A stretch of DNA of 64,000 nt from Rubritalea profundi (GTDB lineage: Bacteria; Verrucomicrobiota; Verrucomicrobiia; Verrucomicrobiales; Akkermansiaceae). Positions 4,761 to 64,000 of the stretch are shown here, in pieces. The number at the start of each line of letters is the position of its first letter. Within the stretch, counting starts at the first letter, position 1. Position numbers and translations under genes: made by a program. The DNA is taken from NCBI RefSeq assembly GCF_002954445.1, contig NZ_MQWA01000001.1, positions 3,865,780-3,929,779 on the forward strand. Reading direction: 5' to 3'. The notes under the pieces are model-generated. The model was not told the DNA's origin, searched no databases, and saw only the letters and a list, made by a program, of their open reading frames with translations.

Positions 4761-4810
4761 ACCAGCAGTTTACGGATTTACTCCCGCTCCACTAGCTAAA
4801 TTTATGGTGA

Positions 4811-5248: not shown

Positions 5249-5328
5249 ATCTCACATAATGCACCCGTTCCCTCTCACGTTCAAACTCTTAGCGTATCGG
5301 ACGCAATTGCCATGATCAGAGTAGATAC

Positions 5329-5360: not shown

Positions 5361-5383
5361 CTTACAAATGAGTGCTTAATCAC

Positions 5384-5692: not shown

Positions 5693-5785
5693 GAATTCAA
5701 AGTAATCTCTATCAGCTCCAAAAAAAAGCCCAAATCTTCTACTTTTCTTATTTTATAGTCACGCGATGCATTGCAGGTTCAATCC

Positions 5786-6859: not shown

Positions 6860-6860
6860 C

Positions 6861-7151: not shown

Positions 7152-7152
7152 T

Positions 7153-8037: not shown

Positions 8038-8044
8038 AGAAGTA

Positions 8045-9430: not shown

Positions 9431-9443
9431 ATTCCTTATTCCT

Positions 9444-10325: not shown

Positions 10326-10568
10326 AAATGTATTACCTTAATAGTAAACAAAGCCTTAGTGTGGCAACCATATTAGCGTATTCTTAACCAATAGATACTG
10401 AAACTCACGCTCTCTTGTACTTCGCATCTTCCACAGTAACCTCAACGGGGTAAATCGAGTCAGATTGATGTTTCTTGCCTTTTTGAAGAAAACTTTCTAC
10501 ATCTTTGTAAGATTTCCTCGTAAACACGCTTATTCAAGTAGAAAATTCTCCCCACAACTAACATATCT

Positions 10569-11447
10569 ATGATAAAGAAAACCACACTATTTAGCTGCTT
10601 AGCTTTTGGAGCAAGCGCCCTAGTTTCAAATGCTGAAGCCAAGTCGGCGACTAACGACAGCAAATCCGACAAGATCAACGTCCTCTACGTAACCCACGAA
10701 CCTGGCAAGTATCACAAGTACACTCCTCAGCGCGAGATTTTCCAGGAAATAGCAAAGAAGAACAACTGGAACCTCAAAGTCATCTCAGGCAGCCACGCCG
10801 AAGTAGAAACAAAACTCGCGACCGAACCCAATTTCGGCAATGGCTCAGACGTCATTGTCTATAATATCTGCATGGCTGGCAGCAAAAAGCTCAATGCCCC
10901 ACACAACATCATTCAACAAACAAAGGAAAAAGGCATCCCAGCCCTCCTCGTTCATTGTTCACTTCATAGCTTTTGGGTGACTTATAAAGAAAATGGCAAG
11001 GACGCCGTCCACGCTGAAGGCGCTAACCCTAAAGCAAAAACAAAAGCAAAACTCCTCGCCGAGTGGAAAACTGCCCACCCTGGCGTTGCTTTTCCAGCAT
11101 GGCCTAACATGACAGGTATAGCATCCACTAGACACGGACCTAAACAGCCAATCGTGGCCACACCAATTGACGGATCGCACCCGATCTTCAAAGGCGTTGA
11201 TACTGGATACACCACACCCAATGCTGAACTCTACAATAACTTCATCACTGGCGCCGACTCTAAGAACACCAAAATCCTTCTCGAAGGTAAGCAAGGAAAA
11301 AGCCAAGCAGCCATCCTCTGGGAGCACCCAGTTGGTAAATCAAAGGCGATTTCTTTCTCTCTCGGCCATGGTCTTGAGGAATGGAAGCAACCAGAATTCC
11401 AAACAATCCTTGCTAACTCAGTGAAATACCTCGCTACAAGTAAGTAA
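10569..11447 (+). CDS. Secreted ThuA-domain protein
   Basis: The 292-residue product has a signal peptide (KKTTLFSCLAFGASALVSNAEA), so it is exported. The rest is a ThuA-like glutamine-amidotransferase-fold domain: NVLYVTHEPGKYHKYTPQR at the start, DVIVYNICMAG and ALLVHCSLHSFW in the middle, and HPIFKGV and AISFSLGHG toward the end. ThuA domains occur in trehalose or sugar-related proteins, and multiple paralogues are usual in Verrucomicrobia and Planctomycetes; the catalytic role is unclear. A candidate promoter lies at 10483-10511 (TTGAAG, 17 nt, TGTAAG). A strong terminator follows, so it is a single-gene unit. Confidence 0.82.
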   Translation: MIKKTTLFSCLAFGASALVSNAEAKSATNDSKSDKINVLYVTHEPGKYHKYTPQREIFQEIAKKNNWNLKVISGSHAEVETKLATEPNFGNGSDVIVYNICMAGSKKLNAPHNIIQQTKEKGIPALLVHCSLHSFWVTYKENGKDAVHAEGANPKAKTKAKLLAEWKTAHPGVAFPAWPNMTGIASTRHGPKQPIVATPIDGSHPIFKGVDTGYTTPNAELYNNFITGADSKNTKILLEGKQGKSQAAILWEHPVGKSKAISFSLGHGLEEWKQPEFQTILANSVKYLATSK

Positions 11448-11471
11448 GTTCACCTCAATTTTTAACTCTCA

Positions 11472-11507
11472 ATGCCGCGTCCATCACATGGATGCGGCAT
11501 TTTTTTA
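11472..11507 (+). terminator. Intrinsic terminator after the ThuA gene
   Basis: ATGCCGCGTCCAT (11472-11484) pairs with ATGGATGCGGCAT (11488-11500) with one G-U pair and a 3-nt loop, followed by seven Ts. Confidence 0.9.
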
Positions 11508-11959
11508 TTCTTGAGTAATACCATTTAAACATTTGTGTCAAAATGGTGATGCCCAGTGCGCAAGGACAAAGTTGAAGTCTCCTGAGCGATGCGAACTAGC
11601 GCCATAGATTGCCCTCATTGCATCGCTTGAGAAATCCGACCACACACTACACCACTTCCCCCCCCCTGTAGCTCACGACCATTGCCTTGGATTTTTAGAA
11701 ATACCAGCCTAACGATTCTTGATCGCTGTGGATTCGTGAGTGAGATGTTTCATCGTGTGGGCATTGACGGTGAAGCCCTGCCCTGTTGGCTTTTCCTTTA
11801 TTTCGTGGTTAGTCGTCGCTTCACGGGATTTAACCTCTTCTAGTCATTGCTAAAAACGCAATACAACTTGATGATTAATTCAATTTACGCAATCGATAAA
11901 TTAGGATTGAATGCGCGGGTAACAAATTTATCCCCCCACAAATAACAGAACTAAATATT
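11508..11959. other. Long intergenic region upstream of ilvC
   Basis: These 452 nt carry no convincing ORF. They include a C-run with TGTAGCTCACGACCATTG (11667-11684), which resembles GGTAGCTCACGACCA at 34359, and an AT-rich part (about 11850-11959) just before ilvC that probably holds its promoter. I saw no leader peptide with runs of Ile/Val/Leu codons and no recognisable riboswitch. Confidence 0.5.
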
Positions 11960-13429
11960 ATGGCTGAAAATTACTTCAACACACTTCCACTTCGCCGCCA
12001 GCTTGAAGAGCTTGGCGATTGTCACTTCATGGACGGATCCGAATTTGCACGTGGCACAGAAGCTGCACAGGGCAAGAAGATCGTCATCGTTGGTTGTGGC
12101 GCACAGGGCCTCAACCAAGGTCTCAACATGCGTGACTCTGGACTCGACGTTTCTTACGCACTCCGCGACGCGGCAATCACTGAAAAGCGTCAGTCATTTC
12201 TCAATGCTTCTGAGAATGGTTTCGCTGTAGGCACCTACGCTGAGATGCTTTCATCTGCAGACATCGTGATGAACCTCGCACCTGATAAGCAGCACACTTC
12301 TGTTGTTGAGACAGTGATTCCTCACATGAAGGAAGGCGCTACATTCACCTACGCTCACGGTTTCAACATCGTGGAAGAAGGCACACAAATCCGTAAGGAC
12401 CTCACCGTGATCATGGTGGCTCCTAAGTCCCCTGGTTCTGAAGTACGCGAGGAGTACAAGCGTGGCTTTGGTGTTCCAACTCTCATTTCCTGCCACGTAG
12501 AGAACGATCCTACAGGTGAAGGCATCGAGATTGCTAAGGCTCTCTGCGTTGCTCAAGGTGGCCACCACGCTGGTGTGCTCAACTCTTCATTCGTAGCGGA
12601 AGTAAAGTCCGACCTTATGGGCGAGCAGACTATCCTCTGTGGACTTCTCCAAACTGGCTCAATCCTCTGTTTCGACAAGATGGTCAAAGAAGGAATCGAA
12701 GAAGGTTACGCATCAAAGCTTATCCAGTTCGGTTGGGAGACTATCACTGAGGCTCTCAAGCACGGTGGCATTACTAACATGATGGATCGTCTTTCTAACC
12801 CGGCTAAGATCGTGGCATACAGCCTTGGTGAAGAACTTAAATTCATCATGGGTGACCTGTTCTACAAGCACATGGATGACATCATCTCTGGTGAGTTCTC
12901 CAAGACAATGATGGCTGACTGGGCTAACGACGACGTCAACCTGCTCCAATGGCGCAGAGAGACTGGTGAGACTGCATTTGAAAAGTCCACACCATCTGGT
13001 GAGATTTCTGAGCAAGAATTCTTCGACAAAGGCATCGTAATGGTGGCAATGGTGAAGGCTGGCGTAGAGCTCGCATTCGAAGCAATGGTTGATTCTGGCA
13101 TCCAGCCTGAGTCTGCTTACTACGAGTCACTCCACGAGACTCCACTCATCGCCAACACAATCGCACGTAAGAAGCTCTTTGAAATGAACCGCATCATTTC
13201 CGACACAGCTGAGTATGGTTGCTACCTTTTCTCACACGCTGCAGTTCCACTTCTCAAGAACTTCATCGAAGAGATCGACACAGACGTGATCGGCAAGGGC
13301 CTCGACTCCACTGACACGACTGTAGACAACCGCCTCCTTGTGGACGTGAACTACAACATTCGTAACCACGAAGTTGAAGAGATCGGTGAGATCCTCCGTG
13401 AGTCCATGTCCAACATGGCTGCTATCTAG
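11960..13429 (+). CDS. ilvC: Ketol-acid reductoisomerase, class II (long form)
   Basis: IlvC converts acetolactate or acetohydroxybutyrate to dihydroxy acids with NADPH and Mg2+ in valine, leucine and isoleucine synthesis. The start [19 protein letters not shown] and the length (489 residues) mark the long class II form, as in E. coli, with a duplicated C-terminal helical domain. The Rossmann site is [28 protein letters not shown] carries the catalytic His region, and acidic metal ligands lie in [13 protein letters not shown]. The codon choice is strongly biased and even, which suggests high expression. It is a single-gene unit with its own terminator. Confidence 0.95.
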
Positions 13430-13470
13430 TCTGTTCGTTAGAACAAAGAATCTAGAATTCTTATTAAAAG

Positions 13471-13504
13471 AGCTCAGGGTGTAAATCGCTCTGAGTTCTT
13501 TTTT
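13471..13504 (+). terminator. Intrinsic terminator after ilvC
   Basis: AGCTCAGGG (13471-13479) pairs with CTCTGAGTT with two G-U pairs across a 9-nt loop, then CTTTTTT follows. Confidence 0.75.
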
Positions 13505-13614
13505 GTTACTACTCAAGCACATCTAGCCCCATTGACTCATGACCATTGACCAATGACAGAAGCTTACCCGCTTCTACACTTGCAGTTCTGGGTAAATCCA
13601 TTTACTAGATATCT

Positions 13615-14703
13615 ATGTCCAGCACACTTGGCCAAATCTTTAAAATTTCTACATGGGGTGAGTCTCATGGCGTCGGAGTAGGCGTCAACATCGACGGCTG
13701 CCCACCACTTCTTGAAATCACTCAGGAAGACATTCAAAAAGAACTCGATCGTCGCCGTCCAGGCCAGTCCGATATTGTGACTCCACGTAAGGAAGGCGAT
13801 GTCTGCGAGATTCTATCAGGCGTGTTCGAGGGTAAAACTCTTGGCTCCCCTATTGGCATTCTTGTCCGCAATCAGGACCAACGCCCATCGTCGTACACAG
13901 AGATGAAGGACAAGTACCGTCCTTCTCACGCTGACTATACTTACGATGCTAAATACGGCATCCGTGCATGGCATGGTGGTGGACGCGCGTCAGCTCGTGA
14001 GACAATCAGCCGAGTGGCTGCTGCTGCAGTGGCTAAAAAAGTGATCGACTCAATTTGCCCTGGCATCGAAGTCATCGCCTATGTCAAATCTATCAAACAC
14101 CTTCAGGCAAACGTCGATCCTAACACAGTGAAGTTCGACGACGTGGAATCTAACATTGTCCGTACTGGCGACCCAGCAATGGTTGAGCCAATGATCGATC
14201 TGATCAAGCAAGTGCGCGGCGAAGGCAACTCCGTCGGAGGTGTGGTAGAGTGCGTGATCCGCAACTGCCCAGCAGGGCTCGGCGCTCCAGTCTTTGACAA
14301 GCTCGAAGCTGAACTCGCTAAGGCCATGATGTCGATCCCTGCTACTAAGGGATTTGAAATCGGCTCAGGTTTCGATGGAACTCAGCTCACAGGCGCGGAA
14401 CACAACGACTATTTCTATATGGAAGACGACAAGGTCCGCACCAAGACTAACAACTCAGGAGGCATCCAAGGTGGCATCTCGAATGGCGAGAACATCATCT
14501 TCCGTGTGGCATTCAAGCCAACTGCGACGATCATGACCGAGCAACCAACGATTGATACCGACCATAAGGAAACAGAGCTCAAAGGCCGTGGTCGTCACGA
14601 TGCCTGCGTTCTGCCACGTGCCGTGCCAATGGTTGAGGCTATGTCCTACTTGATACTAGTCGACCACATCCTCCGCCAACGCGCGCAGATGGGCTCAGTC
14701 TAA
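13615..14703 (+). CDS. aroC: Chorismate synthase
   Basis: AroC makes chorismate from 5-enolpyruvylshikimate-3-phosphate with reduced FMN, the last step of the shikimate pathway. Signatures are [20 protein letters not shown] at the N-terminus, [33 protein letters not shown] and the late [17 protein letters not shown]. The length (362 residues) is normal. It is well separated from ilvC and followed by a GC-rich hairpin. Confidence 0.96.
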
Positions 14704-14728
14704 CTGACCAAGTTTCTCACTACTTTTA

Positions 14729-14762
14729 AGCACCCCGCTCTAGCATCACGAGTCGGGGTGCT
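14729..14762 (+). terminator. Probable terminator after aroC
   Basis: AGCACCCCGCTC (14729-14740) pairs with GAGTCGGGGTGCT (14750-14762) with a one-base bulge. The tail is only moderately T-rich (TTACTTTC), so termination may be incomplete. Confidence 0.6.
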
Positions 14763-14780
14763 TTACTTTCAACCTATCAG

Positions 14781-15696
14781 ATGAAATCAACGCTCAGCTT
14801 AATCCTCGTCCTCTGTAGTTTTTCAGTAGCCGTTGCCCAAGAGCTCACCCCTCGACGCTGGAGTCATTTGCCACTGGACACTGACATCGCTGGCATTGGC
14901 TGCATATACGCACAGGCTGACATCTTTCTCGATCCGGTCCTTCAGGTGGAAGACCTAGAGCTAGAGATGAACACCGTGGCTGTCCGCTACATGCGTACAT
15001 TTGAATTTTCAGGCAAGTCATCACGCTTTGAGCTGGGTCAAGGATTTCAAGATGGCACCTATCGTGGATTACTTCAGGGGAAATCAGCACGGGCCCACCG
15101 GCAGGGACCTACCGATACAGTCCTACGCCTATCCTCTATCCTCTATCCTCTACGGCGCCCCTCCGCTGAAGGGAAAAGAGTACCAGCAACATCGGCAGTC
15201 CGTGGCAGATAGTGGCACCCTCATTGGCGCTGCTCTCATCGTCCAGCTACCCACTGGCGATTACTCCGAGGATCAACTCATCAACATCGGCTCTAACCGC
15301 TTCACCATTCGGCCTCAAGTTGGTGTCACCCACCGACGTGGAAAATGGACTTATGAGACCTCAACTTCGATGTGGTATTTTACTGACAATGACAATTTCT
15401 GGAATGGTAGCGAACGTCAGCAAGATGCCTTCTGGGCATTTCAAACGCATGTCATTTACACCTTCAAACTAGGCTTCTGGACGAGTGCTAGCGTTGGCTA
15501 TGGCATTGGTGGTCAAAATGAGATCAATGCCATCAACAAGGATGACACCAAAGAGAACCTCGCTTACTCGCTCGCAGCAGGCTATTCATTCACCCGCCAA
15601 TTTGGAGCAAAAATTGCTTATATCGGAACTCGCACCCAAACTGATAAAAGCTTCGATAGCGAGAATGTTGCAATTGGACTCTCGTGGGTGTGGTAA
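14781..15696 (+). pseudogene. Outer-membrane protein (phenol-MetA-pathway-like family), frame broken by a 7-nt repeat
   Basis: The first part (14781 onward) has a signal peptide (KSTLSLILVLCSFSVAVAQ) and reads to VLRLSSILY. The rest, ending with YIGTRTQTD and IGLSWVW, continues in another frame. The two halves look like one barrel protein of the family annotated as putative phenol-degradation MetA-pathway outer-membrane proteins, with QLPTGDY, NIGSNRFTIRPQVGV and FTDNDNFWNG typical of it. The break is exactly at three tandem copies of CTATCCT (15129-15149). With two copies the frame reads RLSSILYGAPPLKG without interruption and gives about 302 residues. It could be an inactive allele, a phase-variable gene or a sequencing artefact. 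Confidence 0.75.
15129..15152 (+). repeat. Heptanucleotide tandem repeat (CTATCCT x3 plus CTA)
   Basis: Three perfect copies of CTATCCT are followed by CTA inside an outer-membrane protein gene. The unit is not a multiple of three, so each gain or loss shifts the reading frame. Two copies restore the full-length frame. Confidence 0.9.
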
Positions 15697-15787
15697 ATAT
15701 TTTCGGCTAGATCCGTGCTGAACCTCATTTTACTTCTAATTCCTTTAAGATCGACGCGATGCTCTCAGTTCTATTTTATCTGACCTA

Positions 15788-16597
15788 ATGAATTTCGGCG
15801 AAATCGGTGCATCGGGAGTGATCATGCTAGTGATCCTCGTTTTTGCGGCGCTGGGATTTGCTAAGGGCGCACTCAAGTTATTTTACGGGTTTGTCTGTTT
15901 AGTCGGCACCCTCGTTGCTGGCTGGGCTGGTTACCAATTTGGCTACCCGCTGGTGCTCGAAAAATGGCCAAAGATTCCAGAGTACGGCCAATACTTCTGT
16001 GGCATTGTTTGCGGGATTCTCGCTTTCCTATTACTCAAAACTCTCACCGATTTTTTCTCAAACCCATTTGCTAAGGAACAAGAGGAACGGAAGAAGGGAT
16101 CTGGAATTTTCGGCTTACTCACGGGCTTCGCCTTAGGATTTGTAATCTGCCTATTGGGCATGCACCGCCTAGTAGATAAAGGCACCTGGGCTGAGATCGA
16201 TTACTGGATCGCCCAGGCGAGTGATGCCGCCCCCGAGGAGCTCCCCAACTTAGCTAAACTCAAGTATGACTTTCTCAACTCGGCCGTCGGCAAGCAGGTT
16301 GCACGGTTTATATCGCAAGATGAAAGCGGTGCACAAAACCTAGCCAAGCTTGCCATCATGCAGGTCGCTGCGCCAGAGAAACTCCAAGCTCTAGCCTCTG
16401 ATCCAGCAATCGCCAGCACCCTAGAATCCCCTAAGGTACAGGAATTCTTGCAAGATCCAGCTATCAAAGAAAGCATCGAAAAAGGTGACACAGCAGCGAT
16501 TCTCGCACACCCTGGCTTCATCGCTCTGATGGCCGACACCGAACTGAATCACGCAATCGCACAGATCGATATTGAACAAGCCCTCAAGCTCCGCTAG
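15788..16597 (+). CDS. CvpA-like membrane protein
   Basis: This 269-residue protein has about four hydrophobic segments in its first 135 residues (VIMLVILVFAALGFAKGALK, FYGFVCLVGTLVAGWAGY, YFCGIVCGILAFLLLK, GLLTGFALGFVICLLG). A polar, helical C-terminal tail of about 130 residues follows. The short basic loop after the first helix (FAKGALKLFYG) and the overall pattern resemble CvpA-family proteins, linked in enterobacteria to colicin V production and envelope homeostasis. The tail is longer than in CvpA. It lies upstream of gatB with an 80-nt gap. Confidence 0.55.
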   Translation: MNFGEIGASGVIMLVILVFAALGFAKGALKLFYGFVCLVGTLVAGWAGYQFGYPLVLEKWPKIPEYGQYFCGIVCGILAFLLLKTLTDFFSNPFAKEQEERKKGSGIFGLLTGFALGFVICLLGMHRLVDKGTWAEIDYWIAQASDAAPEELPNLAKLKYDFLNSAVGKQVARFISQDESGAQNLAKLAIMQVAAPEKLQALASDPAIASTLESPKVQEFLQDPAIKESIEKGDTAAILAHPGFIALMADTELNHAIAQIDIEQALKLR

Positions 16598-52668: not shown

Positions 52669-54096
52669 CTATAGTTGAGTCAGGCCATCAACTCGACCGA
52701 TAACCCGTTCAGCAATCACAGCGTCTATTACACCCTCATTGACCTTTTTTTTGCCTTCTTGCCAAAGGCTACGAACCTTATTTTTTTGCAGATACCTGTG
52801 TAAGTCTATTTCGCTTTGGCCAGATACAACCATGCGACGGATCGTATTGTCTATCTCCATTATTTCATAGACCGCTGCTCTTCCAGCATAGCCAGAACCC
52901 ATGCAGTACTTACACCCATCCGTCCTGTATGAACGACCGTAACTAGTTGCATCAGTTTCCTTTTGGCAATGTTTACATAGCTTTTTTACTAATCTCTGAG
53001 ATATGACAAGGTTGAGCGTTGATGCTACCAAATACGCGGGAACGCCCATATCGACCAGACGCTGAGGTACTGTTACTGCTGAGTTTGTGTGTAAAGTGCT
53101 GAGTACTAAGTGACCAGTTAGAGCTGCTCTTACAGCAATAGAAGCTGTTTCAGCATCACGGATTTCACCCACTAAAATAACATCTGGATCATGCCTTAAG
53201 GCCGACCTAAGGGCGCGAGAGAAAGATGTTCGCTGGTGGTCAATACCGACCTGTGTGACTCCTGCCATTTCATATTCTACTGGATCCTCCAAAGAAATGA
53301 GCGAGAGGTCCTCGCTTTTGCGCAAGTGCTTCAGAAATGAATACAGAGTCGTAGATTTACCGCTTCCTGTTGGCCCAGTCACTAAAACTAATCCTTGCGC
53401 AATTTTTAGGTTTTCATGAATGGATTTGACTGATTTTTCATCAAATCCCAATGATTCTAGCTTATCTGGGAGCTCCATAGCTCCGATCAATCGTAGCGTT
53501 ATTTTCTCTCCGTGCTTAGTTGGTATGCTTGCCACACGAATATCAATCGACCTTGATTGTAGCTCTGAATAAAATGAAAATTTCCCATCCTGTGGTAACC
53601 TTCTTTCACTGATATTCAGGTCGGCTAGCACCTTAATACGAGACACCATCTGATGGTGGTCAGCTGAATCGTATTGCGAGTGACTTTGCATAGCTCCGTC
53701 GACTCTCATCCGGCACCTAGAAGACGTATCAGACGGCTCTAGATGAATGTCAGAAGCTTTATTGATGATTGCAGAACTGAGTAGCTCTCTCACCATACGC
53801 ACAGCTGTAGATTCCTCAGTTAGGCCTCCATCTCTATTCACTCTTTTCCCATAGACCTTATTTAGACTATTTTTGATAGTCTCAGTTTCCACGATCTCAA
53901 CCGAAATTGAGTCATGCTCTGGCAGGTATCTGAGGAGAGAATATTTCACCTCTCCAGCCGTATCCTCTGAGGCAGCTATATGGATAACTCCTTTGACATG
54001 GGCAAAAACAATTGCGCAATTTCTTTTGGCTATTGTCATCGGCACTTTCAAAGCCAATGCTGTATCGATTGCTACCTGACTGAAATCAAAATTCAT
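52669..54096 (-). CDS. gspE: Type II secretion / type IV pilus assembly ATPase (GspE/PilB)
   Basis: The 475-residue cytoplasmic ATPase powers pseudopilus assembly. After an N-terminal domain of about 90 residues come KASDIHLEP and the N2 domain, Walker A GPTGSGKSTT (241-250), the Asp box (LISLEDPVEYEM), Walker B DPDVILVGEIRD (303-314), the His box (GHLVLSTLHTN) and a zinc tetracysteine (Cys374, Cys377, Cys395, Cys398). The tetracysteine is typical of assembly ATPases and absent from PilT, so with the PilT at 57588 the locus has both types. It is the last gene of the operon, 20 nt after the secretin. Confidence 0.93.
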   Translation of the reverse strand: MNFDFSQVAIDTALALKVPMTIAKRNCAIVFAHVKGVIHIAASEDTAGEVKYSLLRYLPEHDSISVEIVETETIKNSLNKVYGKRVNRDGGLTEESTAVRMVRELLSSAIINKASDIHLEPSDTSSRCRMRVDGAMQSHSQYDSADHHQMVSRIKVLADLNISERRLPQDGKFSFYSELQSRSIDIRVASIPTKHGEKITLRLIGAMELPDKLESLGFDEKSVKSIHENLKIAQGLVLVTGPTGSGKSTTLYSFLKHLRKSEDLSLISLEDPVEYEMAGVTQVGIDHQRTSFSRALRSALRHDPDVILVGEIRDAETASIAVRAALTGHLVLSTLHTNSAVTVPQRLVDMGVPAYLVASTLNLVISQRLVKKLCKHCQKETDATSYGRSYRTDGCKYCMGSGYAGRAAVYEIMEIDNTIRRMVVSGQSEIDLHRYLQKNKVRSLWQEGKKKVNEGVIDAVIAERVIGRVDGLTQL

Positions 54097-54116
54097 CTAT
54101 AGAATATTGCGGATTA

Positions 54117-55919
54117 CTAACGTCTAATACGGAATGGGCGATTTTCTACTGGAGGCTTATCTTTCTTTGAGTGACGAGAATTGTTAGTTTTAAGTGTCTC
54201 TGAGGATATTTTTTCTCCTGACTTATTTTTATTAGGTAACCTAGGGAATAAGGAATCATCAGTACGATTCTGATAGAAATCTAAGCCTTTATTTTGCTTA
54301 TCTATAACCTCTATACCACCAGTAGTATAGCGATGCTTAGAATCTGAAAGAATTTCATCCGTGGGTCTAGTGTCGCCCCCATTGATAATATGCGGTGTTA
54401 TAAGAATGATTAATTCGGTCTTTCGTGAAGTAGTTTTATCCCTTCTAAATAATCTTCCTAGAAGTGGTATATCGCCTATCACAGGAACTTTATCTACGGA
54501 ATAGGAATTCTCAGTACGGATTAAACCTCCAATGGCTATAGTTTTGCCATTTCTAGCAACCACACTCACTTCAATATTAGACTTTTCTACAGAATCGACA
54601 GGAATTAATGACCCGCCAATTGGTATACTATTGTTACCAATTTTCACCGTAGAATTTTCCTGGTTTACAAACAATGCAACAGTACCATCATTATTCACAC
54701 GTGGAATAATTTTAAGAGTCGTGCCGATGTCACGCACCTCAGTTTCGGTGATTATTTGATCATTTACTGTACCGTTATCACCAGAGATCGTCGTATTTTG
54801 CGATGCTCCAGTTGTGATGACTCTCTCTTCAGCTGCAACGAATGTTGCTTCGCGGTTACTCACTGCCATCAGCATAGGAGTAGCAACTACTTCTACATCA
54901 TTATTTGTCGCCAGAGCCTGCACACGCGCTTGAATATCCCTACTTAAATAAGTATAAGCAAATGTAGAGGCAGCCTCTGTTGCAAAATTACCTAGTCCAA
55001 AACCGTGTTCTACACCTGAGTATTCATAGGATTGCGGAACTCCCTGTCCATCCCTATCGGCTGGACTAAACATTTCGTCACCCTGTACCACATTCCAGTC
55101 AACGCCGACATTTTCTCCGTCACCAACATTGAGTTCGAGGATTTTCATTTCGAGCAGAACTTGCCTAAGTGGAAGGTTCATCTGTGAGATTAGATCTTTA
55201 ATTTTGGACAATGCTGAAACATTCGCAGTTCGGATTATCAACTGGCTATGCTCCAAGCTAACCGTGATATAGATAGAGGTTCCTAGCTGTTGTTCGGTCT
55301 GTTCAATTGTCTGAGTTTCCAACATGGATAGCTGAGTACCGTCTGACTCACCAGCTACCCCACTGCTATTCTGGGAACTCGAAGAACCAGTGACCGTTCT
55401 ATTATTATCATTATTATCATTATTATTATTATTATCACTATCTTGTCCCTGACCACTGCCAGATGTGCTGCTAAAGTCTAGCACCCCTTCGGGGTCACTA
55501 AAGATTGCTTCGCCGGGGAAAAGTGATTCAATCGTCTTAGCTATTAACTCTAGATTCGCTGGTTCTACTTTGAAAACTTCTAAGCTCTCGCTGGCAGAAA
55601 AAACTGTATTTTCCCGAAATTCCTCCAAGGTCAAAATCTGAAACCCTTCGTAGATTGGATCCTTTCGATAGACTAGGCCAGATGACACGCACATAGTATT
55701 CAGCGCTTGCTCGAGACCGCCCTTCATAAATAGGAACGAGCACTCTACTTTCTGTGCATTTGCTGTAGCAGTCACATTATATTCGGTGACATGGGTAAGC
55801 ATCCTACAGACTGCTGCCACACTCATATCATTGACAGAAATGTAGTCCACAACTTCAGCGCGGACATGCACACTCGAAAATAACAGCGCGGCCGCTGTGG
55901 TTTTAATTATACTTTTCAT
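54117..55919 (-). CDS. gspD: Secretin (GspD/PilQ-type outer-membrane channel)
   Basis: The 600-residue product has a signal peptide (MKSIIKTTAAALLFSSVHVRA). Short N-domains follow; one holds IRTANVSALSKIKDLISQMN and LRQVLLEMKILELNVGD. The C-terminal secretin core has VVATPMLMAVSNREATFVAA and VPVIGDIPLLGRLFRR, then ELIILITPHII, the family signature. An unusual insert (about residues 165-195) is rich in Asp and Asn, encoded by a trinucleotide repeat. The tail after the core is polar and basic and could carry a pilotin-binding or S-domain function. No pilotin gene is recognised. Confidence 0.93.
   Translation of the reverse strand: MKSIIKTTAAALLFSSVHVRAEVVDYISVNDMSVAAVCRMLTHVTEYNVTATANAQKVECSFLFMKGGLEQALNTMCVSSGLVYRKDPIYEGFQILTLEEFRENTVFSASESLEVFKVEPANLELIAKTIESLFPGEAIFSDPEGVLDFSSTSGSGQGQDSDNNNNNDNNDNNRTVTGSSSSQNSSGVAGESDGTQLSMLETQTIEQTEQQLGTSIYITVSLEHSQLIIRTANVSALSKIKDLISQMNLPLRQVLLEMKILELNVGDGENVGVDWNVVQGDEMFSPADRDGQGVPQSYEYSGVEHGFGLGNFATEAASTFAYTYLSRDIQARVQALATNNDVEVVATPMLMAVSNREATFVAAEERVITTGASQNTTISGDNGTVNDQIITETEVRDIGTTLKIIPRVNNDGTVALFVNQENSTVKIGNNSIPIGGSLIPVDSVEKSNIEVSVVARNGKTIAIGGLIRTENSYSVDKVPVIGDIPLLGRLFRRDKTTSRKTELIILITPHIINGGDTRPTDEILSDSKHRYTTGGIEVIDKQNKGLDFYQNRTDDSLFPRLPNKNKSGEKISSETLKTNNSRHSKKDKPPVENRPFRIRR
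55401..55436 (-). repeat. Trinucleotide repeat coding an Asn/Asp run in the secretin
   Basis: ATT/ATC units repeat without interruption on the plus strand, which read as AAT/GAT codons (Asn, Asp) on the coding strand. The repeat keeps the frame, so copy number changes vary only linker length between N-domains and the core. Confidence 0.85.
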
Positions 55920-55927
55920 CTATTTAC

Positions 55928-56380
55928 CTATCTAATAATAATTTTCCCATCTACCCCCTTCGGCGTCACAATAACCTCAAATCGTGTGATCTCCGTGACC
56001 TCGACGTCTCGCCATTCTCTGCTTCCTCCCGCTTTCACGCTAAAGGTGGACCCGACTCTGACAAATAACGGGTTCAGTTGACCACCAATTTTCAACACTG
56101 CCATTTTACCCCCCTCTGAAGTATGGATAATACCCAGTATTTTAGTCACATTGAGAGAATCACGCACTAGTTTGTAGCTTTTATTTGTCACACCAGATGC
56201 TGCAACAAACGGGTTTCTTGGTTCACCCTCACTATCTTCCTCTGGATCTGTATCCACTATTTCATCATCAGCTGCTATTGGTGCCGGTGGCACGTTCTCT
56301 TCAGTTCTTACTTGCTGCGCGTTCGCCGAACCCGCCAGTGACACCACCATCGTTAAAAGTTTAATTATTTTTGATTTCAT
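55928..56380 (-). CDS. PilP/GspC-like periplasmic protein
   Basis: This 150-residue product has a signal peptide (KSKIIKLLTMVVSLAGSANA), then an acidic linker (DDEIVDTDPEEDSEGEPRNP). A small beta domain follows, with VTKILGIIHTSEGGKMAVLK and LFVRVGSTFSV. The sequence RNPF before a short beta domain is reminiscent of PilP and of the HR domain of GspC, which connect the inner-membrane platform to the secretin. Its place between gspF and the secretin supports this role, but the family call is by pattern. Confidence 0.65.
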   Translation of the reverse strand: MKSKIIKLLTMVVSLAGSANAQQVRTEENVPPAPIAADDEIVDTDPEEDSEGEPRNPFVAASGVTNKSYKLVRDSLNVTKILGIIHTSEGGKMAVLKIGGQLNPLFVRVGSTFSVKAGGSREWRDVEVTEITRFEVIVTPKGVDGKIIIR

Positions 56381-56395
56381 GATTATTTTTTACAA

Positions 56396-57583
56396 TCAAT
56401 TTACTGAAACAATAGCCAAAATAATGGCTATATACACAACAGCTACAATCGACCCGACGAAAATGATCAGAACGGGATTGAGCAGTGCTACGAGAAGGTT
56501 TATTTTATGCTGTAATACGGAAGAATAATGGCTCTCTAACTCGCCAAAAGCAGTCGGTAACGACCCAGATAATTCACCAGTTTTTATAATGGACCTCGCT
56601 GTACTTGGAATCAGGCGCTTATCCATACATTGCTGAAGCGACTTACCCTGTATTAATTTATCGTGGCTGTTATCTATCCAATCTGAATAAACCGCCGTAA
56701 TCATAGATTTCTTTAAAAGCGGCAGAGAAGATATCAGGCTATTGCCACTATCCATCATTGCTCGCAGAGTACTACTGAACATAGAGACCTCTGCATATGT
56801 CACTATCTTTCCAAATACTGGCAGACGCAATAGCATAGACTCCAGCAATCGCCTCCCTTTGTGCATTCTGTAAACAATTATAAATAATGTCACCAAGCTC
56901 ACAAAAACTACTACAATGAGTATCAGATTCTCTTTTAGTGTGTCGGCTACTTCAAAAACATTGCGGGTGAAGGTTGGCAATGGCTTGCCTAAGTTTTGTA
57001 GAAATTTAGCTAGTTTGGGAATGAATTTGAAGAACAATGCGTAGGTAACCAAAATCGAAATAATCAGCACTATACCCGGGTATAAAAAGCTTGAGATTAG
57101 CTGTTTCCTTACTTCATTACGAAAGCCTAAGATATTGGCCAGCCGCTCAAATGCCGGTGCTAGTTCACCAGTCTGCTCAGCTGCTTCAATTACACCACAG
57201 ACTAGCGGAGGAAATATTTTTGGGTGCTTGGCCATAGAACCTGTTAGTGATTCACCCGACTGCAGATTATTGCGCACATCCTCTACAGATAACTTTACTT
57301 TTGTTTTATAGACGCTGCTCGCCACCTCTGCTAGCGCCGAAGAAATAGTAATTCCAGCACGGGTCATCATTGCTAACTGCCTTAGTAGCATCGTGCGGTC
57401 AGCGGCAGTGACCATCCACCATGAAAATAGACCTTCGGCGCTCTCGACCACCTCCTCAATAGAAACGACTGCCAGTGACTTCTCTCGAAGCATTTTTGCA
57501 ACATCTTGGTCGCTAAATGCTTCGATGCTGCCCTGTTGTTGCTCTCCTATTGACGAGACTGCCTTGTAACTATAAATTGGCAT
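56396..57583 (-). CDS. gspF: Inner-membrane platform protein GspF/PilC
   Basis: The 395-residue protein has two copies of the T2SSF domain (LLRQLAMMTRAGITISSALA and SMFSSTLRAMMDSGNSLIS) and three hydrophobic helices, the last at the C-terminus (VLIIFVGSIVAVVYIAIILA). The start MPIYSYKAVSSIGEQQQGSI is typical. It is the platform on which the ATPase acts. It is 4 nt after the PilT-type ATPase gene. Confidence 0.92.
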   Translation of the reverse strand: MPIYSYKAVSSIGEQQQGSIEAFSDQDVAKMLREKSLAVVSIEEVVESAEGLFSWWMVTAADRTMLLRQLAMMTRAGITISSALAEVASSVYKTKVKLSVEDVRNNLQSGESLTGSMAKHPKIFPPLVCGVIEAAEQTGELAPAFERLANILGFRNEVRKQLISSFLYPGIVLIISILVTYALFFKFIPKLAKFLQNLGKPLPTFTRNVFEVADTLKENLILIVVVFVSLVTLFIIVYRMHKGRRLLESMLLRLPVFGKIVTYAEVSMFSSTLRAMMDSGNSLISSLPLLKKSMITAVYSDWIDNSHDKLIQGKSLQQCMDKRLIPSTARSIIKTGELSGSLPTAFGELESHYSSVLQHKINLLVALLNPVLIIFVGSIVAVVYIAIILAIVSVN

Positions 57584-57587
57584 TAGT

Positions 57588-58664
57588 CTACTTACCTGCT
57601 AAATATTTCATTTTATCCCTAAACAACTGGGGATTTCGGACATAAGGCAAAGCCACCTCTAACGAGATCTTGCGCGCGTGGACTCTGCCAGCTAGATGGC
57701 TATCCATGCTTATCATTCCCGGCTCAGAACCAATCTCTAGAAGGGAATAAATTTGCCTAAACTGGCCATTGCGAATAAGATTTCTGACGGGGGCTGAATT
57801 GACTAACATTTCAATAATCACGCAGCGCCCATCCTCATCCAAAGTTGGCAGCAGGGTCTGTGTCACCACTGCTTTGAGCACCATACTTAGCTGGCGTCGC
57901 AGTGAATCCTGCTCGTCAGCTGGGTACATTCCTAAAATTCTGTCCAGTGCACCTACTGTATCAGCACAGTGCAGCGTAGAGATCACCAAGTGGCCAGTTT
58001 CAGCTGCAGTTACTGCAGCACGCATTGTTGCCAAATCCCGCATCTCACCGACCAGAATCACATCGGGGTCTTCGCGTAATGCCTCGCGCAGGGATGAGGA
58101 AAAGTCCACCACATCAACACCTAGTTCACGCTGGTGAATCAATGACTTTTTATTCTCATGCAAGTATTCAATAGGATCTTCTACGGTAATGATATGGTAG
58201 GCCTTCATCCGGTTAATCTCATCGATCAAGGCTGCCATTGAGGTGCTTTTACCACTGCCAGTCGGCCCAGTAAAAAGTATCAATCCCGAATGAAATTTCG
58301 TCAACTCATAGACATGCTCAGGCAAGCCGAGTTCATCTATAGTCCGGTTCAGCGATTCTAACCTACGGATAGCTACTGCGTAGCCATTTCGTTCTTTATA
58401 AATGTTGAAACGAAATCGATGACGCCTGAGTGACGCCGAAGAATCGACACTAAACCGCACTTTCATTTCGCTTATTTCATCTTCGGTGAGGCAGTCTGTC
58501 ACAATATTATCTAAGTCATGCTGGCCCCATAATTTATCTGACAAAGGCTGCAGCTTTCCATGAAGCCTGCCTAATGGCTGGATGCCTGTGGTTAAATGCA
58601 CATCGGAAAATCCGTCTGCAATACAGATTTCCAATAATTCTGTTAGTAGGCTACTCAGCTGCAT
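57588..58664 (-). CDS. pilT: PilT-type retraction ATPase
   Basis: The 358-residue ATPase has Walker A GPTGSGKS (133-140), HIITVEDPIEYLH, Walker B EDPDVILVGEMRD and the His box HLVISTLHC. The late motif PVRNLIRNGQFRQIYS corresponds to the AIRNLIRE block that PilT needs for retraction, and the tetracysteine of GspE/PilB is missing. PilT disassembles type IV pili, so its presence inside a secretin/GspF/GspE operon suggests a retractable filament. Its end is 4 nt from gspF, and its start overlaps the upstream gene by 14 nt. Confidence 0.93.
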   Translation of the reverse strand: MQLSSLLTELLEICIADGFSDVHLTTGIQPLGRLHGKLQPLSDKLWGQHDLDNIVTDCLTEDEISEMKVRFSVDSSASLRRHRFRFNIYKERNGYAVAIRRLESLNRTIDELGLPEHVYELTKFHSGLILFTGPTGSGKSTSMAALIDEINRMKAYHIITVEDPIEYLHENKKSLIHQRELGVDVVDFSSSLREALREDPDVILVGEMRDLATMRAAVTAAETGHLVISTLHCADTVGALDRILGMYPADEQDSLRRQLSMVLKAVVTQTLLPTLDEDGRCVIIEMLVNSAPVRNLIRNGQFRQIYSLLEIGSEPGMISMDSHLAGRVHARKISLEVALPYVRNPQLFRDKMKYLAGK

Positions 58665-59259
58665 CGTCTTGGGATTTGTTAAATGTGTAAGTGAGCTTCA
58701 AGGTCAACTCACCGTCATCATCCACTTGCTTAATGAATAGCTCTTTGACAATCAGCCCCTCAATTACCATGCACGCTTTGATCGCTCCTAAGATTGATGA
58801 ATAAAGCCCTTGAGCCTCGACCTCCATAAATTGGAGCCCCTTTCTCCTTGATTTCACTCGCTTGAGGGAACTGACATGCAGTCCATTCTCTTCCATAAAC
58901 AGAGCAAGCATTGAGACACTTTGCTCCATCTCGGTAAAGTCTTGGGACTCCATGTCATCCAGCGCTATTTGCTCTGTCTCATCCGCGATATTACCCTTAG
59001 GAAGTTTCTCCTCATTTTCCAGCTTCTTTAGCCTAGCTTTGGCAGCAGCTAAAGAGCCAGACTTAGGCTGCCTCGACATATAGTTATTCGCAAACTCTAG
59101 CTCTTCACCTTGGTCGTCGATCTGTTCTGTTATATCATCTAATTTTTCTTCAGTAAGCTGCTTGCTCAACAACCAACCACACAGCGTCCCAGCTCCGACA
59201 CATACGATGAGAACTGCAAAAAAAACTATTGATAGTCCCTTACTTTTAGCTTTATCCAT
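58651..59259 (-). CDS. GspM/PilO-like inner-membrane protein
   Basis: This 202-residue protein has one N-terminal TM helix (GLSIVFFAVLIVCVGAGTLC), a charged coiled-coil-like stretch (LTEEKLDDITEQIDDQGEEL and on), then an alpha/beta C-terminal domain (LQFMEVEAQGLYSSILGAIK, LTLKLTYTF) of the size of the PilO/GspM ferredoxin-like fold. The gene overlaps pilT by 14 nt and the PilM/N-like gene by 8 nt, so translation is coupled. The assignment relies on topology and position rather than on a firm motif. Confidence 0.65.
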   Translation of the reverse strand: MDKAKSKGLSIVFFAVLIVCVGAGTLCGWLLSKQLTEEKLDDITEQIDDQGEELEFANNYMSRQPKSGSLAAAKARLKKLENEEKLPKGNIADETEQIALDDMESQDFTEMEQSVSMLALFMEENGLHVSSLKRVKSRRKGLQFMEVEAQGLYSSILGAIKACMVIEGLIVKELFIKQVDDDGELTLKLTYTFNKSQDDAAE

Positions 59260-60790
59260 TGGGTTTGATTATAAAGGTGTAAGTTTCTTCTTTAGCATCT
59301 TCTTCCACCTCGGCAATGTGCTCTGGTAGATCACGCTCGGCTAACAGCTTGGCAAATTCGTCTGTAAAACCCCTAGCTTCCATCAGATTATTAGCCTTAC
59401 CATTGAGCATTAGTTTGCCATTCCAGTCAGAAGAGAACGCTTTCAATTCGATGCTACTCCCTGACGCTCCGACACTTTTTGATACCGTATCTAAGAATGC
59501 TTTATGATCAGCAAGAAATGGAAATGGCACGGTGTTGCCACCCTTGGAACTGGTGGTCACCTTATACTTTTTTATCTCTTTATTGACCTTCTCTATCATC
59601 TCTTTCTCTCCATCGATCTTAGCTAAATCAGCGTTAATATAATCAATTTTAGCGACCAACTCCTCTAGTTCTATTGTTTGCTCTTGGATTTTAATGTAAT
59701 TGGGAACTACCATTGCTGCTGCAGAACATAGCGCACAGACACTGGCTAACACTATCCATGTCTTGCGGCTTTTGAACCATACTTCAGGAATCGATGACAC
59801 CCGATGCACATTGAAATCACGATCAACGGGAACCAAGCGCAGTCCATCAAGCGCTGCTAGGACTCCCGCTGCAATAAACTCCTCGCTAAACCTGGCAGAA
59901 CTCACATCAATACTGTGCTTATTGAGCACATATTTATCGGCATCACTGGCAACAACTCTGACACTCTCGTCATCAATCCCCGATACCTGAGAAAGCCAAC
60001 CGGATGGTGGGTCGATACCCAGCCTGGTAAACTCAGTGAAGTTTTCTATCTTTCCAGATTTCCAGTGCAACAAAGAAGCACTGTGGCTCTCGAGATAGGC
60101 ACAACTACCAGTCGATTCGGATCGAGCCAATACTTGTTCTGAGACGATCCCCAGTAAAACGAGCTTATTTTTCTCAAGAAAATCTCCCCACATTGCCAGC
60201 GAATCTAACGGCAAGAAGCTGGTCAGCACTTGGTCATGTTCTATCTCCTTAATAGCGATACTAACATCCCCTACACTTTTCACCAAATGCGTGCTAACTG
60301 GTGTAGAGGAATCCCAAAACCCCAAGCCTTTAACTGTCTGCTTTAGGCTACCCGTGGGGCTCAATTCTGGGAGCACACTAATAAGCTCTGTAAAATCAGT
60401 CTCGGTCAAGCGATCTTCTATAACACAGCAAACCTCTGGGTCTTGTTTATCGAACAGGCTTTCTACCACATCACTGGCAGCGAACTGAATCGCTCGTTCC
60501 AGCTGCTGTTTATCCTCTATATTTTCCAGTGGAGCAGCTAGCACGGTTTCCCTAGCATCTGAGCTCACCACCAGCAACCGCTTCGGAATTGGATTCTTTT
60601 GCTGCTTTAGAGCTTCGAGAATTTTCTCCATACTCTGGCTAAAGACATCATCAACTACCTGAATAAATGCCACAACCGCACCACTTTTCACGATAAGTGC
60701 CGAATAGTAATTCTCTTGCTGCACGATAACCAGCAGTGGCTTTGTATCCAATGCCACTAGACTTAGGTCTTGTTTTAGTTTTGTCTTCAT
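59252..60790 (-). CDS. GspL / PilM-PilN-like fusion protein
   Basis: The 512-residue product has a cytoplasmic actin-like N-terminal part (about residues 1-330). One TM helix follows (TWIVLASVCALCSAAAMVVP, near residue 350), then a coiled-coil (ELEELVAKIDYINADLAKID) and a small alpha/beta end domain. This is the GspL layout, equal to PilM plus PilN in one chain, which links the assembly ATPase to the periplasmic parts. It is 8 nt upstream of the GspM-like overlap and 8 nt from the pseudopilin gene before it. Confidence 0.7.
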   Translation of the reverse strand: MKTKLKQDLSLVALDTKPLLVIVQQENYYSALIVKSGAVVAFIQVVDDVFSQSMEKILEALKQQKNPIPKRLLVVSSDARETVLAAPLENIEDKQQLERAIQFAASDVVESLFDKQDPEVCCVIEDRLTETDFTELISVLPELSPTGSLKQTVKGLGFWDSSTPVSTHLVKSVGDVSIAIKEIEHDQVLTSFLPLDSLAMWGDFLEKNKLVLLGIVSEQVLARSESTGSCAYLESHSASLLHWKSGKIENFTEFTRLGIDPPSGWLSQVSGIDDESVRVVASDADKYVLNKHSIDVSSARFSEEFIAAGVLAALDGLRLVPVDRDFNVHRVSSIPEVWFKSRKTWIVLASVCALCSAAAMVVPNYIKIQEQTIELEELVAKIDYINADLAKIDGEKEMIEKVNKEIKKYKVTTSSKGGNTVPFPFLADHKAFLDTVSKSVGASGSSIELKAFSSDWNGKLMLNGKANNLMEARGFTDEFAKLLAERDLPEHIAEVEEDAKEETYTFIIKPNG

Positions 60791-60798
60791 CCTTAGTT

Positions 60799-61968
60799 CT
60801 AATTACCAGAACCCTCTGATTCACTTGAAATTAGCCAATTGAAATCCGGTGAACTACTGACAAGTGGCTGTGAATGTGTGTACCTAGGTGCGAAAAAAAA
60901 GACATCGGGGTAGACCGCATACAGCCTCTTGGCCAAGCTATCACTGTCGCTGGCTCCTATTTTGTAGAGGACTACTTGGTAGCGGTACGCTGTGGGGTGC
61001 CCTCTGAAGTAGGCTGTGAGCTCGCTAGATGAGTTAAGGATAGTAGTAGGAGCAGCCTCGGTCATCATTGGTACCATAATTGCATCATCAGACGAGTTTC
61101 TAATAACACTGGAGTGGTATGCCCCAACCTCACCCATTTCATCATTTAAATCGATACCCGGGTAAATAAGCCCCAATATAAGCTCTTCATCTGTATTATT
61201 TTCTATAATTAATGATGGTAAGGAGGTTTCAGCTAGATCGACCTCAAAACTCGTCTTTGCAACGACCCTCTTTGATGGCTGCGCTGGATAATCCACAGAG
61301 TATGGGTCAATATCCTCGGATTCTGGGCCATTTCCCGTCGCTTCTGTGTCCTCTTGTTGATCCTTTGAGAAAGAAAAGAATTCAATCCCGTCAGTGACCG
61401 AGTCGACACTAGTGCCGTCTTCATAATTCGCATCCCAGTCATTACCCCATGCATCATACAGTATTGCAGTACCATCGTTCTCACCCTCCGCATAATCACC
61501 ATCTAGATAAGGGCCACGCCAGCCATGCTTGAGCAAGATGTCAGCACGAGATTCTGGGTCATTAAAGGATGAGCTCCAGTCCTCATCGGCCACCTCGTCA
61601 CCCACTTTTCTCCACAGGCCTTTGATTGCAAGATACCTTGGTGCTGGGTACGTAAATGCTGCTGGTACTGGCTCGTTCGCATTAGGGTTAAGCAAGAGTG
61701 CAGATACTGTATTCGGACGTTCTCCAATGTCAGAAATATATCCACTGGATGTGACGACTCCACGTGGACTCACCGAATGACTGCCTAAGATAGCTGATCG
61801 AATAGCTGCGTGTTGCTGCTGAATAAGTGTCGAGCGCGCCTCCTCGCTGCTATCGTCAAGCGATACAAGCAAAGTACCTGCTAGTATCGTCATTATTGAC
61901 AATACTATCACCAACTCAAGTAAGCTAAATCCTTTAGCTATTGTATTAGGTGAATTATTTTTTTTCAT
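60799..61968 (-). CDS. Long type IV prepilin-like protein (pseudopilin)
   Basis: This 389-residue product has a prepilin signal, basic leader KKNNSPNTIAKG followed by FSLLELVIVLSIMTILAGTL with Gly at -1, Phe at +1 and Glu at +5. The rest is a large polar domain with many Asp/Ser/Thr and Gly-Pro-Tyr turns (GWRGPYLDGDYAEG), more than twice the usual pseudopilin length. Cleavage by a prepilin peptidase is expected, but none is encoded in the window. It is 8 nt upstream of the GspL-like gene. Confidence 0.85.
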   Translation of the reverse strand: MKKNNSPNTIAKGFSLLELVIVLSIMTILAGTLLVSLDDSSEEARSTLIQQQHAAIRSAILGSHSVSPRGVVTSSGYISDIGERPNTVSALLLNPNANEPVPAAFTYPAPRYLAIKGLWRKVGDEVADEDWSSSFNDPESRADILLKHGWRGPYLDGDYAEGENDGTAILYDAWGNDWDANYEDGTSVDSVTDGIEFFSFSKDQQEDTEATGNGPESEDIDPYSVDYPAQPSKRVVAKTSFEVDLAETSLPSLIIENNTDEELILGLIYPGIDLNDEMGEVGAYHSSVIRNSSDDAIMVPMMTEAAPTTILNSSSELTAYFRGHPTAYRYQVVLYKIGASDSDSLAKRLYAVYPDVFFFAPRYTHSQPLVSSSPDFNWLISSESEGSGN

Positions 61969-62135
61969 GATTGTGAGTTGGTTTACAGTTGAGCGCTTTA
62001 ACGAGAATGGTGGACATGGGAAACGGCCGAACTTGCGCTTGCAAAAAAAGCTTCCTCGTCACCCTCTGCCACAGAAAATTGCTATTCTAAGATCCGTCTA
62101 CTTAGCTAGTGTATTTAAGAATAATCTATTTAACC

Positions 62136-62906
62136 CTAAAGCTTCAATTTCCTCGAAACCACCACAGGTGGAATGACTGAATTCGTAGGATTCTCTGAGT
62201 CGTAATCATCTAACACCAACATGTATACCTCATACCGGTTGTCTGCTGAATCCTCTTTAATAAATCGTATCGGCCTCCCTAGCTTTGGGATATTTCTATC
62301 ATTGGGACGCTCAATTACAGCATCGAATGGGCTAAGATCATGATACCATGAATGATTTTTTCCATCATATGCATCTGGAATAGCTGAAACCCTGCGCAGG
62401 CCAGTGGCTTGATCTGTGTAGCTGTGGCTAGAATCATTTTTGAGATAGGGACCATTCCATCCCAATTTTATGGATGGCTTCCAGGTCCACCTATATTTAT
62501 CGATCGCATCATCATGGTCGTCCACATCGTTACTACCTATAGGTTGGTAGAATAATTGCCAAAAGTTACTCTCTAATCCTGCCCAGTCATGCAGCAAGTC
62601 ACTTGAGGAATTTCCCTCTGATTTGTTCTCATCATTGATGTAAAGAATGCCCGAGAGGTCTAGTTGCTCAGGCTGGAATGGCTTCCCGTGTATAGGTAAA
62701 TAACCAGTGTCTCTTTCAAACTCCAAGATAGCCGCCTTCAATGTATTGAGCCGGTCGATCGTCACAGCCGTATGCGCTCTTGAGTCCATTCCGTCTATAG
62801 CTACTATCGTAATGCCAGAGATCAGCGCCAGGATGCTAACTGTAACCAAAAGCTCCAACAACGAGAACCCATGCTTAGGGTGTCGCTTTCGGTTATTGGT
62901 ATTCAT
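62136..62906 (-). CDS. Type IV prepilin-like protein (pseudopilin)
   Basis: The 256-residue product has leader MNTNNRKRHPKHG then FSLLELLVTVSILALISGIT, with Gly at -1, Phe at +1 and Glu at +5. The C-terminal domain contains LGWNGPYLKNDSS, similar to GWRGPYLDGD in the next pseudopilin, so the two share a block and are probably paralogues. It sits 167 nt upstream of the 389-residue pseudopilin and 97 nt downstream of the partial one. Confidence 0.85.
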   Translation of the reverse strand: MNTNNRKRHPKHGFSLLELLVTVSILALISGITIVAIDGMDSRAHTAVTIDRLNTLKAAILEFERDTGYLPIHGKPFQPEQLDLSGILYINDENKSEGNSSSDLLHDWAGLESNFWQLFYQPIGSNDVDDHDDAIDKYRWTWKPSIKLGWNGPYLKNDSSHSYTDQATGLRRVSAIPDAYDGKNHSWYHDLSPFDAVIERPNDRNIPKLGRPIRFIKEDSADNRYEVYMLVLDDYDSENPTNSVIPPVVVSRKLKL

Positions 62907-62943
62907 GAAATTACTAAGTTTGATTGGGTTAAATAAAGGCTAA

Positions 62944-62971
62944 GGTGAGGCCCTAATACTAGGACCTCACC
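62944..62971 (-). terminator. Hairpin between the first and second pseudopilin genes
   Basis: On the minus-strand RNA a 12-bp stem with one G-U pair (62971-62960 with 62955-62944) closes a 4-nt loop. The tail is only moderately U-rich (TTAGCCTTTATTT). A leaky terminator or 3' stabiliser would raise the first pseudopilin relative to the rest of the operon. Confidence 0.7.
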
Positions 62972-63003
62972 TCTGGTTAATACCTGAAGATCACCAATAG
63001 TGA

Positions 63004-64000
63004 TTACTTCTTCTGTCCTGTAGACTCAGCAAATTCCTCGTCGAGGAAGTCACCACGTGAATCCACGATTGCGACGAATACTGCAGGAGATTGCGAAACA
63101 TCGAAGAGCGCGATGTAGTGCTGGTAAGAATTCTTCGCAACATCACCATAGAATGGTGCTGTAGCTAGGCTAATAGAACCAACTGCAGCTGACTGATCAC
63201 CTGCATTACCAGATGAATCAACTAATGTGTTTGCATTACCAATACCGAGCCCAACGAGCACTGCACCAGGATTTGCTCCCACTTTAATATTGTTGTAACC
63301 ACCGGTACCCGCTTCCCATATTGCAGCTGGGACACTTGTAGAGTCAGCACCAAACTGTAGAACAAATCCGCGACCACGGTTGCGATCAGTTCCGGCACGT
63401 GGAGCTTCGAAAGCGTGCTGAGGAATGGAGATCTCTGAAAGAGGTCCTACATTGGGATCAGCTTCATTTCCAGCTGTGAAGATGCCAGAGAGAGTGTTAG
63501 CTGTCTCGTCATCAGCATCAGCGTGAGTGTAACGTAGCTTTGTAATTCCAGCCTCCACAAGACTCTCAGCTTGAGCTGCAGTCAAAGGAGTAGCGAAGTC
63601 AAACTTACCAGCAAGCTTTGACGCTAGGATTCCAGCTACACCAGCATTACCCACCGCATTAGCAGCGTCGACTCCAGAAGTTAGCACCAAATTATCCGGG
63701 TTACCGTAACCAACATCAGTTGAATTCAATGTAGTAGTCGCACCCGCATCATCTGTGGTTTGGTAAACTTGTCCAACAGTAACCACGGAGTCTCCAGTAG
63801 ATGCATCATATGCAGCTGTGGAAACTGGAATCGCTGACATGAGTGACTCCCAGTTGTTAGGGTAATTACCCTCTACCACTTTGAACTGGCGTACTGAGTT
63901 TGTGAGCGAGCCAATTGTGTTAGTTGCTGTCGCTTTTTGCGACTGAGAAACCAGACCGTCGTAGGCTGTGATCACTGCACCACCGATGATTGCCATGATT
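63004..64000 (-). CDS. Major pseudopilin-like protein, N-terminus outside the window
   Basis: About 330 residues are visible, starting inside the N-terminal helix (MAIIGGAVITAYDG) that normally follows the prepilin cleavage site, which is beyond position 64000. GSLTNSVRQFKVVEGNYPNN is a typical alpha-helix to loop passage of GspG-like proteins. The rest is a large Ala/Gly/Asn/Thr-rich domain. Even codon bias and the hairpin just downstream suggest it is the most abundant filament subunit of the operon. The start codon is not in the window. Confidence 0.8.
   Translation of the reverse strand, partial: IMAIIGGAVITAYDGLVSQSQKATATNTIGSLTNSVRQFKVVEGNYPNNWESLMSAIPVSTAAYDASTGDSVVTVGQVYQTTDDAGATTTLNSTDVGYGNPDNLVLTSGVDAANAVGNAGVAGILASKLAGKFDFATPLTAAQAESLVEAGITKLRYTHADADDETANTLSGIFTAGNEADPNVGPLSEISIPQHAFEAPRAGTDRNRGRGFVLQFGADSTSVPAAIWEAGTGGYNNIKVGANPGAVLVGLGIGNANTLVDSSGNAGDQSAAVGSISLATAPFYGDVAKNSYQHYIALFDVSQSPAVFVAIVDSRGDFLDEEFAESTGQKK

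Follow-up and report, generated by a model that had tools for sequence, protein, structure and literature searches.

The ten genes at the end of the window, i.e., the whole stretch of 64,000 nucleotides analyzed here (G000:C1:3865780-3929779), probably encode a complete, self-contained, and retractable type IV pilus-like machine, which is probably accessory in the genome carrying it. The operon comprises three prepilin genes, genes for an assembly ATPase (GspE/PilB), a PilT-type ATPase, a platform protein, and a secretin, and three candidate PilM-N, PilO, and PilP-type genes. The simplest name for this system is a compact type IV pilus (T4P) rather than a type II secretion system (T2SS) that has gained PilT.

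Organization of the operon

The operon is located on the minus strand, where it runs from 64074 to 52669, and is flanked by an AraC-family regulator gene and by a divergent iron-ABC operon. The ten-gene run of the original prediction is real: in the ORF list and the sequence past the window end, all ten reading frames are intact and lie on the minus strand. Inspection of the sequence beyond the 64-kb end, which had been proposed as a check, completed the first prepilin gene, the start of which (64074) lies 74 nt outside the window. The features are as follows, in the order of transcription.

63004..64000 (start at 64074), minus strand: first prepilin, PP1, 356 aa in full; leader KRKG/FSLLE
62942..62973, minus strand: 14-bp hairpin with a T-rich tail in the PP1-PP2 gap, a possible partial terminator
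62136..62906, minus strand: prepilin PP2, 256 aa; PF07963 4e-6, TIGR02532
60799..61968, minus strand: prepilin PP3, 389 aa; PF07963 2e-4, TIGR02532
59252..60790, minus strand: putative PilM-N fusion/GspL-type protein, 512 aa; one membrane helix near 344-362, operon position
58651..59259, minus strand: putative PilO/GspM-type protein, 202 aa; N-terminal membrane helix, operon position
57588..58664, minus strand: PilT, 358 aa; TIGR01420 402 bits, motifs, solved PilTs at E 7e-80
56396..57583, minus strand: GspF/PilC platform protein, 395 aa; PF00482 1e-40, TIGR02120 249 bits, PilC model 214 bits
55928..56380, minus strand: putative PilP/GspC-type periplasmic protein, 150 aa; N-terminal hydrophobic stretch, adjoins the secretin
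54117..55919, minus strand: secretin, 600 aa; PF00263 1e-39, GspD 190, MshL 134, PilQ 131 bits
52669..54096, minus strand: GspE/PilB assembly ATPase, 475 aa; PF00437 9e-118, GspE 421, PilB 400 bits

The joins calculated from the ORF coordinates are 97, 167, 8, -8, -14, 4, 15, 8, and 20 nt in the order of transcription. The close spacing that had been claimed for most of them holds from PP3 onward, where the genes overlap or are 4-20 nt apart, but not for the loose joins between the pilin genes (97 nt from PP1 to PP2 and 167 nt from PP2 to PP3). The pilT gene occupies the position claimed for it, between the PilO-like (gspM) gene, which it overlaps by 14 nt, and the platform gene (gspF), which starts 4 nt after it. 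After the pilins, the gene order is MN-O-T-C-P-Q-B, and no second case of this order was found among the loci compared.

The prepilin leader of PP1 is clear (KRKG/FSLLELLVVVAI), and the N_methyl domain was identified by Pfam in two of the three pilins. PP2 and PP3 carry GWRGPYL-like motifs resembling those of GspG. All three pilins are long, and a small classical major pilin is absent from the operon. As in type IVa pilus systems, these prepilins are accompanied by a prepilin peptidase, a single A24 enzyme encoded elsewhere in the genome. The hairpin following PP1 is the strongest terminator-like site of the region, and the 66-nt stretch containing it was predicted to fold at -26.8 kcal/mol (z -4.5). 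Since it lies 3' of the PP1 gene, this hairpin suggests that PP1 is strongly expressed with lowered read-through to the rest of the operon; PP1 is the probable major pilin. In addition, an inverted repeat, GCTGACGCTC...GAGCGTCAGC, precedes the start of PP1 by some 45-76 nt (L011, about 899-930). The Rfam search yielded no match.

PilT and the other machine proteins

With 402 bits, PilT passes the cut-off of the PilT/PilU model TIGR01420 (319) by 83 bits, while it scores only 130 bits with the GspE model. Its alignment with the solved PilTs is nearly full length (E 7e-80), and the Walker A, Asp box, Walker B, and His box are all conserved. The predicted AIRNLIRE-type block is present in the form PVRNLIRN at residue 292, where the NLIR core is retained and the ends differ. 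This motif has been reported to be critical for retraction (PMC4471445) and to be absent from PilU (PMC6762196), and its presence places the protein with PilT in this respect. The family models and motifs rule out a GspE-like assembly ATPase devoid of retraction residues. A PilT/GspE phylogeny had been proposed to see whether this PilT forms a separate clade. In the trees, a branch with 100/100 support sets the protein on the side of the PilTs, where it stands alone on a long branch; the AU tests reject neither a basal position among the PilTs nor one near the resident PilTs of the same genome. Judging by its sequence, the protein is a genuine member of the PilT family and would be expected to retract a filament. 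The original idea of two opposed motors in one compact locus, one of them of the retraction type, stands.

Pfam assigned both ATPases of the operon to the T2SSE family. The assembly ATPase carries a tetracysteine motif (C..C/C..C) at 374. The assembly ATPase, the secretin, and the platform protein remain below the cut-offs of the pilus models (PilB 400/676, PilQ 131/284, and PilC 214/700 bits) as well as those of the T2SS models (GspE 421/630, GspD 190/351, and GspF 249/424 bits), and the secretin is also under the cut-off of MshL (134 bits). No match to the operon PilT or GspE above about 50% identity was found in the collections searched, and GspE had no match among the viral contigs. A grouping of the operon GspE with that of Persicobacter (96/81 in the tree) was not trusted because it involves the meeting of two long branches.

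The gene names proposed previously are borne out by family matches in the case of the ATPases, the secretin, the platform protein, and two of the pilins, but not in that of the GspL/PilM-N, GspM/PilO, and PilP/GspC-like proteins, which gave no Pfam or NCBIfam match. The GspC, GspL, and GspM models found no match in the operon, where the putative counterparts are positional candidates. Comparison of the PilM-N protein with the PDB gave nothing usable, and hhalign of the three proteins against profiles from operons of the L168 type (see below) gave nothing significant. The AlphaFold models built from the single sequences of PilM-N and PilO had a mean pLDDT of about 39; the PilO model was unusable, and the low-confidence PilM-N model gives at most a topology hint of an H-E-E-H-E-E C-terminal domain. 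The roles suggested here for the three proteins are based on their place, their size, their hydrophobic segments, and, for PilM-N, this weak hint. The PilM-N query had no match in the 387 other genomes of the phylum or among the plasmids, in single-sequence searches that reach fairly close kin only: the same search also misses the PilM-N fusion of a Nitrospirota locus (L038), and more distant relatives may have escaped it.

Comparable operons and the choice between pilus and secretion system

The presence of pilT in such an operon had been regarded as exceptional, and a search for the same gene order in other genomes had been advised. The same parts do occur together elsewhere, but the order differs, so that the locus resembles a known system in its content and not in its arrangement. 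In a genome of the same family (G362), all ten parts, three prepilins included, form one operon (L206), and in another (G019) the seven machine genes PilMN-PilO-PilP-secretin-PilB-PilC-PilT do so (L168). Like the window, with its candidate PilM-N, PilO, and PilP-type proteins, these operons have a PilM-N fusion, PilO, PilP, secretin, PilB, PilC, and PilT, with three prepilins in L206; they differ from it in their order (MN-O-P-Q-B-C-T-pilins, as against pilins-MN-O-T-C-P-Q-B) and in their pilins, which are short, whereas those of the window are long. Since the secretin, ATPase, and PilMN of L206 score best as PilQ, PilB, and PilM, this type of operon can be taken to be a compact T4P. Four additional genomes of the phylum (L208, L210, L211, and L212) have PilT immediately before the same module; a protein of 361-403 aa is encoded between PilT and PilMN in two of them (L210, 6372-7580, and L212, 8158-9240). 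In the trees, the operon PilT belongs to neither of the two clades of operon PilTs of the relatives, and the operon GspF falls outside the clade of their operon GspFs.

Adjacent PilT and PilC are nothing unusual in Clostridia and PVC-type loci. One locus of Clostridia (L018) has PilT immediately ahead of PilC, in the same run as PilB, pilins, PilM, PilN, and PilO, and blocks of the form PilB-PilT-PilB-PilC are frequently encountered in Omnitrophota, Nitrospirota, Auribacterota, and Verrucomicrobiota loci. The Nitrospirota T4P locus L038 combines such a block with a PilM-PilN fusion (PilM_2 and PilN domains in 561 aa), further genes, and a secretin, but it has two PilBs, another order, and recognizable PilM_2 and PilN domains, unlike the window. 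Among the other loci examined, lone PilT-like genes encoding about 480 aa were observed in L129 (9726-11153) and L130 (9676-11145), with no other pilus gene recognized nearby, and the Lentisphaerota loci L044, L046, L049, and L055 encode proteins, the longest of about 730 aa, that contain two PilT domains in tandem within a single chain.

The type IVa pilus and the operon share assembly and retraction ATPases, a platform, a secretin, and prepilins, and the operon has a candidate PilMNOP-type set, but the operon differs in that PilT alone among the window proteins passes a curated model, the PilM-N-type protein is one polypeptide, and the whole machine is in one operon, whereas diderms usually have their type IVa pilus genes at dispersed sites (PMC4471445). 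Classical T2SSs lack PilT, and the operon has one. It is unlikely, in our view, that the operon encodes a true T2SS whose PilT drives active retraction of a periplasmic pseudopilus in the course of secretion. The slightly higher scores of the T2SS models (GspE 421 vs. PilB 400, GspF 249 vs. PilC 214, and GspD 190 vs. PilQ 131 bits), the single-polypeptide PilM-N/GspL-type protein, and the GspG-like motifs of PP2 and PP3 would fit such a system, and with the unmatched PilMN, PilO, and PilP-like proteins and the uniformly long pilins, those scores also count against a pilus. Every Gsp score is nevertheless below its curated cut-off, the GspC, GspL, and GspM models are unmatched, and the corresponding operons of relatives give pilus-type scores. 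The frequent loss of PilT in T2SSs described by Denise et al. (PMC6668835) also speaks against such a system; the same authors see an early PilB/PilT duplication in the superfamily, with which a deep machine retaining PilT would be compatible as well. That the operon represents a distinct type IV filament lineage, neither type IVa pilus nor T2SS, in which a mobile operon combines a secretion-type core with a retraction motor and large (pseudo)pilins, seems quite improbable. A compact T4P is favored by the full list of parts in a single locus whose genes are closely spaced or overlap, by L206 (ten parts) and L168 (seven), the former scoring as PilQ/PilB/PilM, by the PilM-PilN fusion inside the PilT-containing T4P locus L038, and by the fact that a separate PilT-free T2SS-type locus (L013) is already present in the genome. 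The name of PilT-bearing T2SS implied by the original prediction is therefore not retained, and no evidence was found for the polysaccharide cargo it mentioned.

The genome also has resident T4P loci (L012 and L014) with their own PilT pair. In the tree, the PilBs of this genome cluster with Verrucomicrobiota records (97/94 and 98/93), on which basis it is assigned to Verrucomicrobiota, perhaps to the family of Akkermansia. In L014 (9550-11213), the first resident PilB is split into two ORFs (399 + 142 aa), due to a frameshift or a sequencing error. Another type IV filament locus, which is very divergent (L015, G000:C1:2873000-2892500, 3460-16376), contains GspF, GspE, a secretin, and prepilins, together with a second DotB/PilT-like ATPase (416 aa). 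The existence of the resident pilus, and the accessory, divergent nature of a locus undetected in relatives, might suggest that the assembly part is unused or decaying or that PilT mainly serves the resident T4P. This is very unlikely: the ten frames and the motifs are intact and the joins tight, the resident pilus is already served by two PilTs, and the resident platform is a less probable partner for a PilT as divergent as this one. The compact T4P remains the preferred reading.

Accessory character and proposed function

Of the 11 other genomes of the genus, 9 have the flanking acnB gene (80-90% identity), and none gave a match to the operon PilMN. In L161, the gene order is conserved on the other side of acnB, and the AraC gene and the operon had no match in the 20 kb compared. 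The G+C content of the operon is 44%, vs. 49% in the rest of the window, the adjoining ABC operon also having 44%, and the third-position G+C is low in several operon genes. Taken together, the lack of a match in the other sampled genomes of the genus, the divergence, and the lower G+C suggest that the operon is an accessory system of its genome, probably acquired horizontally beside acnB. Contamination was thought to be unlikely, as the operon is located on a 4.16-Mb contig between acnB and the ABC operon, which have homologs in the genus.

In the mechanism we propose, extension and retraction follow established T4P biology. PP1-PP3 would be processed by the prepilin peptidase of the genome and polymerized by GspE/PilB on the GspF/PilC platform, PP1 being made in excess as the probable major pilin via the hairpin-reduced read-through. 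The PilMN, PilO, and PilP-type proteins would join the platform to the secretin and keep them aligned, the filament would exit through the secretin, and PilT, acting on the same platform, would depolymerize it. The resulting cycle of extension and retraction may serve in adhesion, movement, or uptake.

The operon is special in its gene order, in the divergence of its ATPases, in the position of its PilT and PilC outside the operon clades of the relatives, and in not having been found in any other sampled genome of the genus, but not in its list of parts, which also occurs in one operon in relatives. It is an otherwise divergent example of a well-known machine. One-operon machines with extension and retraction motors recur in several lineages of the phylum, where the same parts are arranged in different orders. 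A portable ten-gene unit of this kind could be useful for finding out which components are sufficient for a filament to be extended and retracted.
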